22,810 nucleotides of DNA from a virus. The translations under genes were made by a program, and so were the position numbers. Of this stretch, positions 17,032 through 22,810 are shown piece by piece (positions within the stretch are counted from its first letter, which is position 1; the number at the start of each line of letters is the position of its first letter). The stretch is from IMG/VR virus record IMGVR_UViG_3300010885_037170, positions 1-22,810 of that record; one strand, written 5' to 3'. The notes under the pieces are model-generated. The model did not search any database. It worked only from the letters and a program-made list of their open reading frames with translations, and was not told the origin of the DNA.

Positions 17032-18207
17032 ATGGCATCGGTTCGCAAATCAAAATTGTCCCCGTTCTGGCTGGCAGACATGCGGGTTTGGAAATCGGTT
17101 CCCGGTCATCCACGGGGAGGATATTCTTGCAAGACGACAAAATCCACCAAGATCCCGACCACGGAAAAGCGGGAAGTTGCCGAACGTGCCGCGGATGAAA
17201 TGGAGCGGATCGGCAACGAGCGCCCCACCGGGCCGGTTGACCGCGGCACGTTCGAGCGCCGTGTTGATTCGCTCATGCGAGCGGCAGGCGTTGACGTTCC
17301 CAAGAAGCAAACGACATGGCGGGAATTTTCTGAAAAGTTCTTGGATGAATCAGACGCGGGCGAATCATCATTGATGAAGTATCGCGGGGAGGTGGGACAA
17401 TTCACCGCGTTCCTTGGGGCCCGGGCTGGCCTGGACCTGCGCGACGTCACCCATGAAGACATTGCACGGTTTTACAAAGGCATCCAGAAAAGCGGGCGAT
17501 CAGTAAACACGGCCCGAAATACGACAAAGACCGTGCGGGCAGTCTTGCACCGCGCGAGCCTGTTGGGATTCATCGACACCAACCCGGCCGCATTGGTTCG
17601 CTTGAAGTCAACAGGGGCGAATTCATCCCGGGCGCCATTCACACGGGATGAGATCGCGGCAATCCTTGCCAATGTGGAGGGGGAAAAACGAATTGCCGTT
17701 CTATTTGGCCTGACCTACGGCCTTCGGGCAGGGGATGCCACTCGCAGGAGATTCGAGGAAATTTCCATTCAAGATGGCATCCCGGTTATTTCGTTCGTTC
17801 CTGAGAAAAAGTCTCGAGCCGGAAAAATAATCACCCTTCCATTGGTGGGAGAGCTTGCCAAGTTGAAAGGGAAGTCCGGATTTATTACGAAATCGCTTGC
17901 CCATAACCAACACCCGGGAAGATTTTTCAACGCGGTCATGAAAGCGGCCGGCATTGACCGGAAGACTCAGAAAGCTACGGGAGAGGGGAGGGCAACCAAC
18001 GCGAAGACGTTCCATTCACTACGCCATACGATTTCCTCTTGGCTCATGGACTCGGGAGCGGATCAACGAATGCGCCAGCTGGTCTGCGATCATGACGACC
18101 CGAAGATGAATGCCAGGTATACCCATGGGAACATTGTCGCCATGTCCAAGGCGATCACCGCAGCGATCAATCCAGCCAGTTCCGAACGGAAAAAATCTGA
18201 CGGATGA
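17032..18207 (+). CDS. int: Tyrosine recombinase integrase
   Basis: 391 residues, the only plus-strand gene. It catalyses integration at, and with an excisionase excision from, the host tRNA-Gly site. Layout: N-terminal arm-binding domain (about 1-65, MASVRKSKLSPFWLADMRVW), core-binding SAM-like domain (about 95-185) and C-terminal catalytic domain. Catalytic residues by position: Arg232 in YGLRAGDA, probable Lys265, His328 and Arg331 in FHSLRHT, His354 in CDHDDPKM and nucleophile Tyr363 in ARYTH. The start codon lies two bases after the last arm-type repeat with no Shine-Dalgarno, so expression is probably weak, leaderless or blocked by bound Int. The last 41 bases overlap the endolysin gene on the other strand. 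Confidence 0.95.
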   Translation: MASVRKSKLSPFWLADMRVWKSVPGHPRGGYSCKTTKSTKIPTTEKREVAERAADEMERIGNERPTGPVDRGTFERRVDSLMRAAGVDVPKKQTTWREFSEKFLDESDAGESSLMKYRGEVGQFTAFLGARAGLDLRDVTHEDIARFYKGIQKSGRSVNTARNTTKTVRAVLHRASLLGFIDTNPAALVRLKSTGANSSRAPFTRDEIAAILANVEGEKRIAVLFGLTYGLRAGDATRRRFEEISIQDGIPVISFVPEKKSRAGKIITLPLVGELAKLKGKSGFITKSLAHNQHPGRFFNAVMKAAGIDRKTQKATGEGRATNAKTFHSLRHTISSWLMDSGADQRMRQLVCDHDDPKMNARYTHGNIVAMSKAITAAINPASSERKKSDG

Positions 18208-18730
18208 GCCGCCGCTTGCGCCACACTCCATCCCCATTGCGATCCGCAGCAGATCCGGGCACGGCATCAGGGGAAGTGTTCGCTTCGATCGTCAACACGA
18301 CATCTTTCCCCCACCGTTCGACAAGTCCGGTGTGGGCTACTCGCCCTTTGCTTGGAAAGTAGATTCCCCAGGGGTCACCGGGCAGCGGAGTTCTTCCACC
18401 GTTTGCCCGTGTCCATGTCGGATTCTGCACCCATACGGCAGCAAGGGCCGAACGCGGGCCAACTCCGCGCAACTGTGCCGCATCATACACCCATCGGTTA
18501 AAGGCTGCACAATACGGGGAGCCGGTTCCGTCGAGTCCGACAGAGGCAAGGATTCTGTCAATGGCTGGTCCGTCATTGTGTCCGGTTGCTTCAGTGGTTC
18601 CGACAAGCCCCGAGGCGGAAGCGAGAATTCGATTTCGCGCTCCCTCGCGCGTCTCCTCAACTCCCACGATATATTGACCGTGGCAAAGAACCGGAGCAAA
18701 CAGGAGGGTAAGTAGAAGCGCACGAATCAC
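18167..18730 (-). CDS. Secreted Cys/His endolysin (CHAP/NlpC-like)
   Basis: 187 residues from a GTG at 18730, which overlaps the preceding stop (GTGA). An N-terminal signal peptide (MIRALLLTLLFAPVLCHGQ) implies Sec export, after which cleavage of peptidoglycan lyses the cell. Catalytic motifs are SPYCAAFNRW (Cys74) and GRVAHTGLVERW (His133), with TIEANTS (Glu149 or Asn151) as third residue. This is the CHAP/NlpC-P60 amidase pattern, and it ends in an RNGDGVWRKRR surface typical of such phage enzymes. Export by a signal peptide means the holin-like neighbours may set timing or trigger by depolarisation. Its 3' end overlaps the integrase gene by 41 bases. Confidence 0.8.
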   Translation of the reverse strand: MIRALLLTLLFAPVLCHGQYIVGVEETREGARNRILASASGLVGTTEATGHNDGPAIDRILASVGLDGTGSPYCAAFNRWVYDAAQLRGVGPRSALAAVWVQNPTWTRANGGRTPLPGDPWGIYFPSKGRVAHTGLVERWGKDVVLTIEANTSPDAVPGSAADRNGDGVWRKRRLIRQIFSVRNWLD

Positions 18731-19104
18731 GAGACTGGCACCAATTTGAGGCAGACGATAAAAAGGATGACGCACAGGACAAATGCGGTCTGTGTGGCAA
18801 GCCAACGCTGGCCTTCCGTGAGATGTTCAAACCATCCCTTGAGGTTCCCCCATTCGTCCGGTTCGTTCGCGCTCGCTTGGTCGAGAGAATGGAAAAGCAC
18901 TTGGAACAGCACCCACCCAATGAATCCGGCCCAGAACGCCAAGAATGTTGCCAGCCCGACCCATTGCAGATACCCGGCATCGAACACCCCCGCAGTCGGA
19001 TCGTAAGCCCGGATGATGGGAGGAAGCGCGAGGTAGATCACGAGGGCCACAACGCCGGAGATCATGCCACGCCAGGAAGAAAAGATTCGTCTGAGAGTTT
19101 TCAT
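18727..19104 (-). CDS. Three-span membrane protein, candidate holin
   Basis: 125 residues from the ATG at 19104, 5 bases after the previous stop. Three hydrophobic spans at about 13-31, 46-72 and 104-122 separated by short loops, with a charged loop (DQASANEPDEWGNLKGWFEH). The N-terminus is basic (MKTLRRIFSSWRG). Size, topology and place directly before the endolysin gene (GTGA overlap) fit a class I holin, but no holin family motif is visible. It could equally be another envelope protein of the cassette. Confidence 0.65.
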   Translation of the reverse strand: MKTLRRIFSSWRGMISGVVALVIYLALPPIIRAYDPTAGVFDAGYLQWVGLATFLAFWAGFIGWVLFQVLFHSLDQASANEPDEWGNLKGWFEHLTEGQRWLATQTAFVLCVILFIVCLKLVPVS

Positions 19105-19111
19105 TGGATTT

Positions 19112-19684
19112 TTAAAAAAATACTTGGATGAATATAAATGTAGTGCACGCCACAACGCCCGGAGCGCAGATTGCTACCGCGGCGCCGGGGATGGAATTGA
19201 GGGCAAGCCCGCCGAACCGCAAAATCAAGAGTCCGACGATTGCCCCGGCAAGGAGTCCGCAGAGCCCTGCCGCGTAAAATTTCAGCTTGTGGTATTTCGC
19301 AAGCGTTGCAGCGTGAGCTTTGACTTCTTTGGCAACCCGGAGTTCCGCCGCGTCCCGCTCGGCCCCGACCTTCTGCACCGCCTGATTTGCGAGATCCAGC
19401 GATGACTTCAATTCAATCGCATCCTGTGCCATTTTCGAGTTGGCGCCGGCCAAGGCATTCGCCAGATCCTGAGTGCGGGCAAGTTTTCCCATTTGTTCAG
19501 CAACGGTCGATTGCGATTCTGCCAGCTTTGCCCGTAGGTCAGCCGTTGCCTTTGTGAGCCCTGTTACAAGGGTTCGTTCGTCAGCAGACAGCGCAGCGTG
19601 AGCGGGCTTGCATGTCGAGATGATGAGCAACACCACAAAAGCGATGAAGAGAAACAGTGGTAATCGAGCGTCAGTAGTTTTCAT
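19112..19684 (-). CDS. Signal-anchored coiled-coil protein with C-terminal membrane hairpin
   Basis: 190 residues. Signal or anchor segment at 9-25 (LFLFIAFVVLLIIS) followed by PAHA, a possible cleavage site; a long coiled coil at about 35-130 (LTKATADLRAKLAESQ, AERDAAELRVAKEVKAH); then two hydrophobic spans at about 136-156 and 167-189. It forms an ATGA-coupled pair with the lipoprotein gene. A periplasmic coiled coil next to a small lipoprotein suggests a spanin-like function in fusing the outer membrane, but the C-terminal hairpin is not typical of Rz. Alternatives are a tail-to-lysis membrane protein or an anti-holin. Confidence 0.6.
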   Translation of the reverse strand: MKTTDARLPLFLFIAFVVLLIISTCKPAHAALSADERTLVTGLTKATADLRAKLAESQSTVAEQMGKLARTQDLANALAGANSKMAQDAIELKSSLDLANQAVQKVGAERDAAELRVAKEVKAHAATLAKYHKLKFYAAGLCGLLAGAIVGLLILRFGGLALNSIPGAAVAICAPGVVACTTFIFIQVFF

Positions 19685-19947
19685 TTTTGGAGTAGCTTGG
19701 TTGTTTTGTAATCCATTCGGTCGAGAATTTCGGACTGTTCACCATTGATGCGCGACAAGACCTCGTTGCTGGCCCGGAGTTCCCCGAGCGCCGCTTTCAC
19801 CTGTTTACTGTCTTGCGCGGCCTGCTGTGCAGCCGTGGAGAGATTGCCAGCCTTTCCAATCGCTCCCGAGAGTTCAGGCGTTGACGTGTGCGTCGGATGC
19901 TGGCAACCAGCTAGAGCAAGAATTGAAATAAGTAGGAGTTTTTTCAT
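19681..19947 (-). CDS. Small lipoprotein, candidate outer-membrane spanin partner
   Basis: 88 residues. MKKLLLISILALAGC gives a clear signal peptide with lipobox LAGC (Cys15). The mature part is short, Thr/Ser/Pro at first (PTHTSTPELSG), then a helical coiled-coil stretch (TAAQQAAQDSKQVKAALGEL, then RASNEVLSRINGE). Lipoproteins of this size in lysis cassettes are often o-spanins (Rz1-like). It is ATGA-coupled to genes on both sides. Spanin identity is inferred from position and topology. Confidence 0.7.
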   Translation of the reverse strand: MKKLLLISILALAGCQHPTHTSTPELSGAIGKAGNLSTAAQQAAQDSKQVKAALGELRASNEVLSRINGEQSEILDRMDYKTTKLLQK

Positions 19948-20471
19948 TGTTCACTGTGCTGGCAGAGTTTCGCAACGAGTTCAGAAAGTTTATCCAGCCG
20001 AGCATCAAAGGCTTCCTGCCGTCCAAAGGAATAGGCCGACCCAACCGATGCACGCTCAACAATAACGTGTGTTTGCTGAACCTGATCAGACAACGAATCA
20101 AACCGTTTTTCCCGCTGTTCCCAAAGTCCCTCATACCTTCCTTGCCATTTTGCAGTTACAAGGTCAGATGTTTGAAGAGACGAGATCGAAGCCGTGTTTG
20201 TAGATTGCTGGTCCCTCAGTGGAATCATCATTAGCGTTGCGTATCCACCAGCCAGCACCAGTAAAAGAGAGGCAAAACTAATCACGGTAGCAAAAGGAAA
20301 ATCTTTCTTCCCCATGCCACGAACAGAAGTTGCCAGGTCTGCAATCGCTTGCTCCATTCGTGAAACCGATATGGCAAGGCCATTGACAATTTTTTCCGTT
20401 TCTAATTGACGGTTAGATATTTCCGTCCTCCACTCAATAACATTGGTTGGATCTACGTGTTGATTTTCCAT
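19944..20471 (-). CDS. Membrane protein with long periplasmic or cytoplasmic coiled coil
   Basis: 175 residues from the ATG at 20471, one base after the sulfotransferase stop (TAATATG). The N-terminal half is helical (VIEWRTEISNRQLETEKIVN). One hydrophobic span lies at about 58-83 (FATVISFASLLLVLAGGYAT). The C-terminal 90 residues are a charged coiled coil (WEQREKRFDSLSDQVQQT) rich in Gln and Ser. Its stop overlaps the lipoprotein start (ATGA). Such single-span coiled-coil proteins occur in phage lysis cassettes as holin or i-spanin candidates. The true role is unknown. Confidence 0.65.
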   Translation of the reverse strand: MENQHVDPTNVIEWRTEISNRQLETEKIVNGLAISVSRMEQAIADLATSVRGMGKKDFPFATVISFASLLLVLAGGYATLMMIPLRDQQSTNTASISSLQTSDLVTAKWQGRYEGLWEQREKRFDSLSDQVQQTHVIVERASVGSAYSFGRQEAFDARLDKLSELVAKLCQHSEQ

Positions 20472-20472
20472 A

Positions 20473-20997
20473 TTATTGAATCCCCTTCCAAATGCTAATA
20501 TCCCGCGCATAATAGGCCCGCACCGCAGCCTCTTCGTCGCTGGTCAGCGTCGGGCGAGTCTCGCTCTCGTTTTCGTGCGGAAGAAAATCGAATCCGACCG
20601 CCGCACAAAAAGCGTTAATTCCCGTCTCGAATTTGAAAAGCTGGACGCTCGGGAGAACGAGGTCCGTGAGTCCGCGAGTTTCGAGCGATTCAAAGTGGAC
20701 ATCAACGAGATTCTGAGTCATGGGCGGTTTTCCTTCAATCCGCTCATCAAGGTCATTGAGCATCGCTAGAGCATCTGTTGGTGTCTTTCCAGTCTTAGCA
20801 CACGCTGAAATAAAACGGTCCACGGAATCACGAATTAGCGCAAAGGCTGAAAAACTATCAGGAATCTCAAACGTGCGGGGAGAAAATGGAGAACGCTGTT
20901 CAGGTGTATAAAGAGCGTCAATCTTTGCCCTGATGCTGGTGCTTCCAGAACGGGGGATGAACAAAATACATTTATTTGTTGGTAAGTGGAGCCACAT
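20473..20997 (-). CDS. Sulfotransferase-like protein
   Basis: 174 residues. CILFIPRSGSTSIRAKIDAL (10-29) matches the 5'-phosphosulfate-binding loop of PAPS-dependent sulfotransferases (P[KR]xGxTS type). FALIRDSVDRFISACAK (52-68) matches the 3'-phosphate-binding motif (R.P..R..S). PPMTQNLVDV and the late SLETRG...LFKFE segment, then an EEAAVRAYYARDISIWKG end, resemble the carbohydrate sulfotransferase group. The protein is shorter than typical enzymes (250-350 residues), so it may be minimal. Catalysis would move sulfate from PAPS to a sugar or other acceptor. It sits between tail-fibre and lysis genes, so it may modify host surface glycans or virion components. The fold is well supported; the substrate is unknown. 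Confidence 0.75.
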   Translation of the reverse strand: MWLHLPTNKCILFIPRSGSTSIRAKIDALYTPEQRSPFSPRTFEIPDSFSAFALIRDSVDRFISACAKTGKTPTDALAMLNDLDERIEGKPPMTQNLVDVHFESLETRGLTDLVLPSVQLFKFETGINAFCAAVGFDFLPHENESETRPTLTSDEEAAVRAYYARDISIWKGIQ

Positions 20998-20999
20998 AA

Positions 21000-21365
21000 T
21001 TAAGATCCTTTAGTTACTGTGCAAGTGCCACTTCCCACATCTACTATGGTAAATGTAACAAGCCACGGACATAATGGAACTGAGGCAATAGGAAGAGACG
21101 CGCTTCGTATGGAAAATATCAGATTTAAGTTTTTGCCATCAAAAATGCCGTAATGATACGTCCAATACGGAAAACTTCCTGTAACGCAGTATAGTTCATA
21201 GGTGATCCCGCCAATCACATCTCCATAAGTATTCCTGCCATTGTTTGCTCCGTTAATAGGCAAAATGATTGATCCGTTTACAATAGCACTTGCCGTCGCA
21301 TCCGGCGTTCCGCCGCTCGCCGGTTTACGCGAAGCAAAAATCGACTGTGCCAGCGCGAGAAACAT
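21000..21365 (-). CDS. Small tail-fibre-associated protein, candidate
   Basis: 121 residues. The N-terminus MFLALAQSIFASRKPASG is weakly hydrophobic but not a clear signal peptide. The rest is beta-strand and aromatic rich (NTYGDVIGGITYELYCVTGS, FPYWTYHYGIFDGKNL, IPWLVTF-like segment CPWLVTFTIVDV). The start overlaps the previous stop (TGATG). Its place after the tail fibre and before the sulfotransferase suggests a receptor-binding or virion accessory protein. No family is recognised. Confidence 0.65.
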   Translation of the reverse strand: MFLALAQSIFASRKPASGGTPDATASAIVNGSIILPINGANNGRNTYGDVIGGITYELYCVTGSFPYWTYHYGIFDGKNLNLIFSIRSASLPIASVPLCPWLVTFTIVDVGSGTCTVTKGS

Positions 21366-21625
21366 CAGGCGTAATAAGCGATGATCGTTCCGCTGTGCAG
21401 AGTGATCGCAGAAAACGACCCTTCAAGAATCGTTCCAGCCGGAATCGTTGGCGCGCTTCCCAACGTGGTATTCGCCACACCCGAGAGCGTTCCAGTCAAG
21501 ATGTTGAATTTCGCGTCTGCAAGAACCTGAATAACACCCCAGGTAGAGCCCGTTACCCCTCCCGGAGTGTGAGCCGAAGTGTCGTTGTAAAGTGTTCCTC
21601 CGCGTGTTGCGTTGTCGATTTTCAT
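21365..21625 (-). CDS. Small virion protein beside the tail fibre
   Basis: 86 residues. Thr/Gly/Ala-rich and beta-prone throughout, with the C-terminal pattern PTIPAGTILEGSFSAITLHS followed by GTIIAYYA. The 'IPAG..L.G.F..I.L.SG..IAY' ending recurs in small proteins next to phage tail-fibre genes. It begins right after the tail-fibre stop and overlaps the next gene's start. Probably a tail-fibre accessory or decoration protein, inferred from pattern and position. Confidence 0.65.
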   Translation of the reverse strand: MKIDNATRGGTLYNDTSAHTPGGVTGSTWGVIQVLADAKFNILTGTLSGVANTTLGSAPTIPAGTILEGSFSAITLHSGTIIAYYA

Positions 21626-21626
21626 A

Positions 21627-22810
21627 TTATGCTTTGATTTCCTGCAATGTTAATGTTGCTGCCGATATTCCGCCAAATAACCGAGCCCCTGTTGTGCCAT
21701 TGATTGCGATTGTTCCTGTGGAACTTGGACCGCATCTGACAGAATATGTCTGAGCGGACGTGCTGCCGGGGGAATCATAAACGCACAGGCTCGCGGTTGA
21801 ATGGGTCTGATTGTAATAATACACATGGCATGTAGCGACGCCGATGCACGTTGATCCGCGAAACACCGAAAAAATTGCGCCGTATCCGTTTGATGCCGCC
21901 GTCACAACTGGCACGCAGAGAGAAACGAGAACCTTGTTTGTTGCTGACTGCGGCGTGATTGCCTGAGAAATAATTTGCACCCCCTCTGAAGAAAGGGGCG
22001 TTGTATCATCAAGGGGAATCACCGAAGTCACCGCTTGCTGTGTCCCATATGATGCTTGAATGACCTGGACAACAGCTCCGGAAGCAACCTTTGCCTGAGT
22101 GACCGATCCGTCTGCCAGTTTTGCAGTTGTCACATTCGCATCAAGAATCTTGACGGTCGTAACTGCATCGGATGCCAGCTTTGCCGCCGTCACATTCGCA
22201 TCCGTAATTTTTGCAGTAGTGACCGCATTCGATGCCAGCTTTGCAGTAGTGACCGAAGCGTCCGCCAGTTGAGTAGTTCCGACAACACCAGCAGAAAGCG
22301 TGAACGAATATGCCGACCACGATCCGGCAGTTGTTGCGGTCGAAATATAAACGGTGGTCGTATCAAGCTGAACACCAAGTTGCCCAAGAAAATCAGGAAC
22401 AGCGGCAGTCCGCGCAGACAAATTTGCAAATGTCTTTGTTGGCTGGTCAACAACTGTTGCCGGAAGATTCAGAAGAGTTTGAATCTCTGCCCCGGTGAAC
22501 ATTTTTGCCACCCCGTCAGCCCCGATGCCAACCAGCGCGTTCAGCACTTTTGCAAATGGGGTGATTGACCCGTCAGCCTCGCGGAGCTTGAAGCTTGCCG
22601 CCAATCGCCGCGCATTTTGTTGGGAAAGATATGTCAGCCGGTCGAGCCCTTGCTCGTGCATGGCCGCGGGGAAGTTGTCAGCCTCAGTATATTGGAGCGG
22701 CTGAACAACCGGAATGTCGCGGTAGATTGTCACCGTGCTTGTCGCCGGAACAGCCGCAACAGTTGTCACGCTTCCACCGTCCGAGTTCCCGGCGCCGGTG
22801 ACCGAATAAT
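21627..22810 (-). CDS. Tail fibre protein, 5' end off the window
   Basis: At least 394 codons, open to the right edge; upstream of the GTG at 22769 the frame continues (YSVTGAGNSDGGSVTTVAAV), so the true start lies outside. The visible N-terminal part (VTIYRDIPVVQPLQYTEADN, FPAAMHEQGLDRLTYLSQQN) matches the conserved virion-attachment domain of T7 gp17-type fibres. A central shaft has about six 10-residue repeats of type NAVTTAKLAD (roughly 22080-22280), encoded by degenerate 30-base repeats. The C-terminal domain from VIPLDDTTPLSSEGVQIISQ on is a globular beta domain likely to bind the receptor. It heads the right-hand operon. Confidence 0.9.
   Translation of the reverse strand, partial: YSVTGAGNSDGGSVTTVAAVPATSTVTIYRDIPVVQPLQYTEADNFPAAMHEQGLDRLTYLSQQNARRLAASFKLREADGSITPFAKVLNALVGIGADGVAKMFTGAEIQTLLNLPATVVDQPTKTFANLSARTAAVPDFLGQLGVQLDTTTVYISTATTAGSWSAYSFTLSAGVVGTTQLADASVTTAKLASNAVTTAKITDANVTAAKLASDAVTTVKILDANVTTAKLADGSVTQAKVASGAVVQVIQASYGTQQAVTSVIPLDDTTPLSSEGVQIISQAITPQSATNKVLVSLCVPVVTAASNGYGAIFSVFRGSTCIGVATCHVYYYNQTHSTASLCVYDSPGSTSAQTYSVRCGPSSTGTIAINGTTGARLFGGISAATLTLQEIKA

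Follow-up and report, generated by a model that had tools for sequence, protein, structure and literature searches.

The catalytic base of PAPS sulfotransferases varies by family, being either a His or a Glu; in HS 2-O-sulfotransferase this function is performed by a His located between the two PAPS-binding motifs. PAPS itself is made by APS kinase. Viral sulfotransferases are known as auxiliary genes of unclear function (PMC10580990, PMC8290583), and the biological role of those carried by phages has been called unclear (PMC10580990). We analysed a PAPS-sulfotransferase-like gene, P0001, in a 22,810-nucleotide virus record (IMG/VR IMGVR_UViG_3300010885_037170; the whole stretch is referred to as the window). 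The described families closest to it are the carbohydrate/heparan-type PAPS sulfotransferases of PF03567 (Sulfotransfer_2) and PHROG 3347, together with annotated phage sulfotransferases such as those of Stenotrophomonas phage DLP_6 and Prochlorococcus phage P-SSM7.

P0001 shares with PF03567 the 5'-loop, the 3'-motif (R...S), the C-terminal half (LPxxN ... Y..D) and the predicted fold, but differs from it in its length of 174 aa, a score below the curated cut-off, the missing canonical His and Gln, and a C-terminal 'RPTLT/KPTLT' signature that is common to the tail subclade described below. The annotated phage proteins are likewise phage-encoded and belong to the same superfamily, although the match is weak; the DLP_6 gene is unfused and lies among replication genes, away from the tail, whereas P0001 is located at the tail. 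Closer counterparts are the genes L086/L091/L111/L114, L088/L093 and L221, which fall into one clade with P0001 and also lie at a tail or fibre module, and for which no description was found in the literature searched. P0001 and its relative L001 stand alone with no visible APS kinase, whereas the subclade relatives include fused forms. The sequence-only reading had regarded a sulfotransferase as unusual phage cargo, which our data do not support, as 372 of 600 pattern-matched IMG/VR stretches carried one. Viral sulfotransferases as such are common, and it is the coupling to the tail and the link to APS kinase that are of interest.

Results

P0001 occupies positions 20473..20997 of the window on the minus strand (ATG at 20997, stop at 20473), exactly the 174-residue reading frame singled out from the sequence. 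It belongs to a same-strand block in which a tail fibre gene is followed by two small ORFs, P0001 and the lysis genes. The tail fibre gene (21627..22769, minus strand; phrog_28766, E 7e-21; phrog_892, tail fiber) has a frame open to the window edge and, at 22056-22568 of the minus strand, TTAKLA/VTTAKI units typical of fibre repeats. The interval between the fibre gene and P0001 contains an 86-aa ORF (21365..21625, minus; phrog_34166) and, immediately upstream of P0001, a gene for a 121-aa protein (21000..21365, minus). On the other side lie an ORF with a hydrophobic stretch, part of the lysis-side block (19944..20471, minus; listed start 20510, likely ATG 20471), an 88-aa lipoprotein-like or spanin-like ORF (19681..19947, minus; weak match to the Rz-like spanin phrog_16495, E 0.017) and a CHAP-type lysin (18167..18805, minus; PF05257, E 1.6e-4, with 22.5 bits below the cut-off of 26). 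The placement between tail fibre and lysis genes thus holds, with the fibre upstream, the lysin downstream, and two small ORFs separating the fibre from P0001.

The gene is tightly packed. It starts 2 nt past the stop of its upstream neighbour, with an SD-like AAAGGA present, and stops 1 nt ahead of the probable ATG of the next gene (20471). A lysogenic-conversion moron would have its own promoter and terminator and stand apart from the late operon; P0001 has 2-nt and 1-nt spacings instead. A search for sigma-70-type consensus sites found no promoter-like excess around the gene (3 sites versus 3.4 in shuffles), no Rfam or tRNA features were found in the window, and no secretion signal or membrane segment was apparent in the protein when read by eye.

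When P0001 was searched directly, Pfam offered only DUF2240 at E 0.1, which is not a meaningful match; NCBIfam, PDB sequences, phage records, plasmids and GTDB contigs gave nothing, and for no model was a curated HMM cut-off passed. PHROG 3347 (Galactose-3-O-sulfotransferase) matched P0001 with E 1.2e-3 and L001 with E 4.4e-4, in the region of the 3'-motif only. Against PF03567, with its cut-off of 22 bits, P0001 gave no match, and L001, L086 and L091 scored 17.7, 20.9 and 21.9, while among the proteins tested L097 (53.3), L096 (37.7) and the DLP_6 protein (36.8) exceeded it; P0001 is not filed under PF03567 because the curated cut-off is missed. Distant relatives were gathered after the DLP_6 sulfotransferase had joined the query, and they match PF03567. 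Comparison of profile A1 by hhalign with the viral Sulfotransfer_2 set, of which L097, L096 and the DLP_6 protein are members, gave a probability of 98.5 and a score of 78.6, against a mean of 11.6 (sd 2.0, maximum 20.7) in 200 column shuffles; because P0001 was part of the query that gathered the relatives, this comparison is not fully independent, although their Pfam membership is. The profile-profile comparison supports the proposed sulfotransferase identity, and P0001 very probably belongs to the PAPS-sulfotransferase superfamily with its P-loop fold.

The two PAPS-binding signatures noticed from the sequence were recovered in the expected structural elements. The predicted 5'-phosphosulfate-binding loop IPRSGSTS (residues 14-21; 20935..20958, minus) contains Arg, is rich in Ser and Thr, and is flanked in the model by strand E9-12 and helix H19-28. 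In the predicted 3'-phosphate-binding motif IRDSVDRFISA (residues 55-65; 20803..20835, minus), strand E50-55 is followed by helix H58-69, and R56 at the strand end is followed by S64 eight residues on. R56 is invariant across 45 viral sequences, and S64 is common to 42 of the 43 others, one having Thr. The AF2 model built with 45 sequences reached pLDDT 88.2 and pTM 0.84, compared with pLDDT 38 with two sequences only, so that the fold depends on the sulfotransferase alignment and is not independent of it. In a PDB fold search the top 13 matches were all sulfotransferases, with modest scores (E 8e-3 for the best, TM by query 0.26-0.47), and 9 of the 12 matches at E<=1e-3 in a viral library were named sulfotransferase. 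In the model both motifs lie in the strand-loop-helix elements expected for 5'- and 3'-phosphate binding. Of the two refuting outcomes named in the sequence-only reading, a structure prediction without a PAPS pocket did not come about, the elements of the PAPS site being present in the model. A P-loop protein other than a sulfotransferase, the outcome against which the sequence-only reading had set its proposal, was rejected, because the motifs and the fold matches agree on sulfotransferase and no other P-loop family appeared among the best of them. The short length noted earlier is correct, but it does not reflect truncation: the alignment of P0001 to longer relatives reaches the C-terminus, and a truncated remnant was rejected on this ground.

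P0001 retains R16, the S/T-rich loop, R56 and S64, and departs from the family elsewhere. S58 replaces an otherwise invariant Pro (RDSVDRF; L001 has the Pro, RNPVDRF). A His between the two PAPS motifs, found in 33 of the 42 others with a residue at that place, and the Gln of the PQ motif, conserved in 39 of 43 others, are missing from both P0001 and L001, while H101 of P0001 is kept at the family 'HF(x)PQ' (HFxPQ) position. Relatives fused to a phrog_7759-type domain also lack the His and have an altered P-loop region; L088 and L093 have the His. These deviations raise the possibility of an unusual general base, for which H101 and E44 are candidates, or of lost activity.

L001 is the sole close relative in IMG/VR (69-70% aa identity), with the same two motifs and at the equivalent place in another phage; it shares with the window the 121-aa upstream neighbour (37% identity), the CHAP lysin (65%) and the integrase (80%). 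Identity between P0001 and L001 at codon positions 1, 2 and 3 is 76, 79 and 33%, and dS is saturated. The protein is under purifying selection, since the first and second positions are conserved while the third are randomised, and the ORF is a real gene rather than a product of chance. A search of portal relatives with PF03567, which misses P0001 itself, gave nothing usable, and one with A5 gave matches only in the window and L001, the portal-relative records being fragments. The L001 record also contains, at L001:26-4279 and upstream of the fibre region, a 1417-aa protein with no Pfam match.

Phylogenetic analysis united P0001, L001, L088, L093, L086, L091, L111 and L114 in one clade of 8 (support 98/96), which remained one when prophage-like L221 was added as the ninth member (support 93/87). 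To judge from sequence comparison, P0001 belongs to a distinct phage sulfotransferase subclade. Each of the nine members in the tree sits at a tail-fibre or tail-protein module, in at least four gene arrangements, and no member away from tail genes was seen in the loci examined. The sulfotransferases of L088 and L093 start where a fibre-like gene ends. L086, L091, L111 and L114 carry a phrog_7759-type domain fused to the N-terminus of the sulfotransferase, and the fused proteins of L086 and L091 come after Gly-rich fibre-like genes; a tblastn search of phage records with the phrog_7759-type domain gave no match. In L221 the fusion partner is DUF4376 (E 5.9e-15), and the gene follows one for an Mtd_N-LRR receptor-binding-like protein in a Verrucomicrobiota genome, among genes, one of them a tape-measure-like ORF, that by eye resemble tail genes. 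The prophage-like tail block at L221:10046-12273 (genome G097, contig C103) is a possible tropism-determinant system. The proposed proximity to receptor-binding genes is therefore shared by the entire subclade, where two types of fusion and, in some relatives, a neighbouring APS kinase are added to it.

An APS kinase gene (PF01583, E 1.4e-37) is the next gene after the fused sulfotransferase in L086/L087 and in L111, between it and the lysis genes (L086:6007-6441 and L111:2832-3266). L086 and L087 have identical sulfotransferase proteins, and the cases count as two separate phages. No APS kinase was found in the window or the L001 record, both of which are fragments. L110, which is the same contig as L086, and L111 are otherwise nearly identical phages; their lysis genes share 100% of nucleotides, APS kinase stands at 89%, the sulfotransferase domain at 75% and the phrog_7759-type domain at 62%, and the fibre genes at 32-36% are unrelated. 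The sulfotransferase therefore lies at the edge of the receptor-binding module and varies with it. An arrangement of APS kinase and sulfotransferase in phages was not described in the literature found, coverage of which was incomplete.

The 22.8-kb window contains integrase, primase, helicase, terminase, portal and major head protein genes. It comes from a tailed phage that we read as temperate because of the tyrosine integrase (17032..18207, plus; phrog_1, E 8e-35), and the record is probably incomplete. The host is placed, probably, in the phylum Verrucomicrobiota on account of the portal relatives, which in bacterial assemblies are mainly from this phylum, one in a Verrucomicrobia MAG having 60% identity. 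The Verrucomicrobiota genome holding the closest bacterial portal relative has its own APS kinase, so PAPS should be available to the phage. A relative at E<=1e-5 was present in 15 of 289 Verrucomicrobiota genomes, and a search for the close family in 388 genomes of the phylum yielded a single match, the L210/L221 prophage-like copy.

Discussion

The reading we prefer, to which we give a probability of about 0.45, is that P0001 is a PAPS sulfotransferase made late and in the service of the receptor-binding module, with the fibre a slightly likelier target than a host glycan. Of its parts, service to the receptor-binding module is held with fair confidence; the protein is likely to be an active PAPS enzyme; and the fibre as acceptor is a tentative choice at somewhat less than even odds. 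P0001 would be made late, on one transcript with the tail fibre and lysis genes, and would draw on the PAPS of its host; in some relatives the adjacent phage APS kinase may supply it. As PAPS occurs in the cytoplasm and no export signal is apparent in P0001, the enzyme is expected to act inside the cell before lysis, sulfating some part of the receptor-binding system there. The acceptor would most likely be the fibre or receptor-binding protein while still nascent, or a glycan attached to it; a host surface glycan precursor would be the alternative. The nascent fibre is favoured by the fusions, and the host glycan precursors by the sulfated exopolymers of some Verrucomicrobiota (PMC7356697). 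A fibre-tied subclade with fusions and a PAPS-making neighbour points to a testable role, namely to sulfate either the fibre or its receptor, and, if true, sulfation would join the chemistry used by phages in host recognition.

A more specific proposal, which we consider rather doubtful, is that phages sulfate their own receptor-binding proteins, the phrog_7759 or DUF4376 domain bringing the sulfotransferase to the nascent fibre. A dedicated APS kinase would supply PAPS in some members, and the modification might serve as post-translational tuning of host recognition. These fusion partners are encoded in tail-gene blocks, and fusion to them is no proof of fibre targeting; no report of sulfated phage virion proteins was found in the literature searched.

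Sulfation could instead be directed at polysaccharide of the host surface, or at a lipid- or nucleotide-linked precursor of it, masking the fibre receptor late in infection or in lysogens, and so blocking superinfection or the binding of progeny to infected cells and debris. We hold this for a possible, though not the leading, explanation. A mask that has to match its receptor would be expected to co-vary with the fibre, and a protein with neither an apparent secretion signal nor a membrane segment is consistent with the cytoplasm, the site of PAPS. The probable host phylum, assigned from the portal relatives, includes members that make sulfated exopolymers and carry sulfotransferases (PMC7356697), in line with the relatives present in 15 of the 289 genomes. 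Masking, however, needs no fusions to tail-block domains, and expression in lysogens is doubtful, given that the gene sits within the late block and that no promoter of its own stands out.

The deviations at the active site raise the question whether the fold is dead or repurposed, as a nucleotide-binding domain or a structural or assembly domain of the tail tip. The absence of the canonical His and Gln, Ser in place of Pro at position 58, the altered P-loop region of the fused group and the fusions to domains of the tail-gene block would all agree with this. Against these stand the retention of R16, the S/T-rich loop, R56 and S64, the variation of the catalytic base among families (His or Glu) with H101 kept, and the APS kinase next to the fused protein of both L086 and L111, which would be difficult to account for unless PAPS is used; we therefore judge a non-catalytic role unlikely. 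Sulfotransferases are widespread in viruses and are as a rule classed as auxiliary metabolic genes, so P0001 might also be generic sulfur-metabolism cargo that reached the tail by chance, but with nine of nine subclade tree members at the tail module, in no fewer than four arrangements and with two kinds of fusion, this is highly improbable.

Sulfotransferase genes were also observed in other viral settings. L096:194-3808 holds three sulfotransferase-like genes within a 4.6-kb viral contig, and a 341-aa neighbour there has the stretch 'CxSPWN...KAGT...RHI..AAHYEY' in common with L221:8544-10052. L097 and L098 are viral cargo clusters in which, by eye, sulfotransferases occur together with carbamoyltransferase-like and 2-oxoglutarate-oxygenase-like proteins, and which are possibly glycan-decorating islands.
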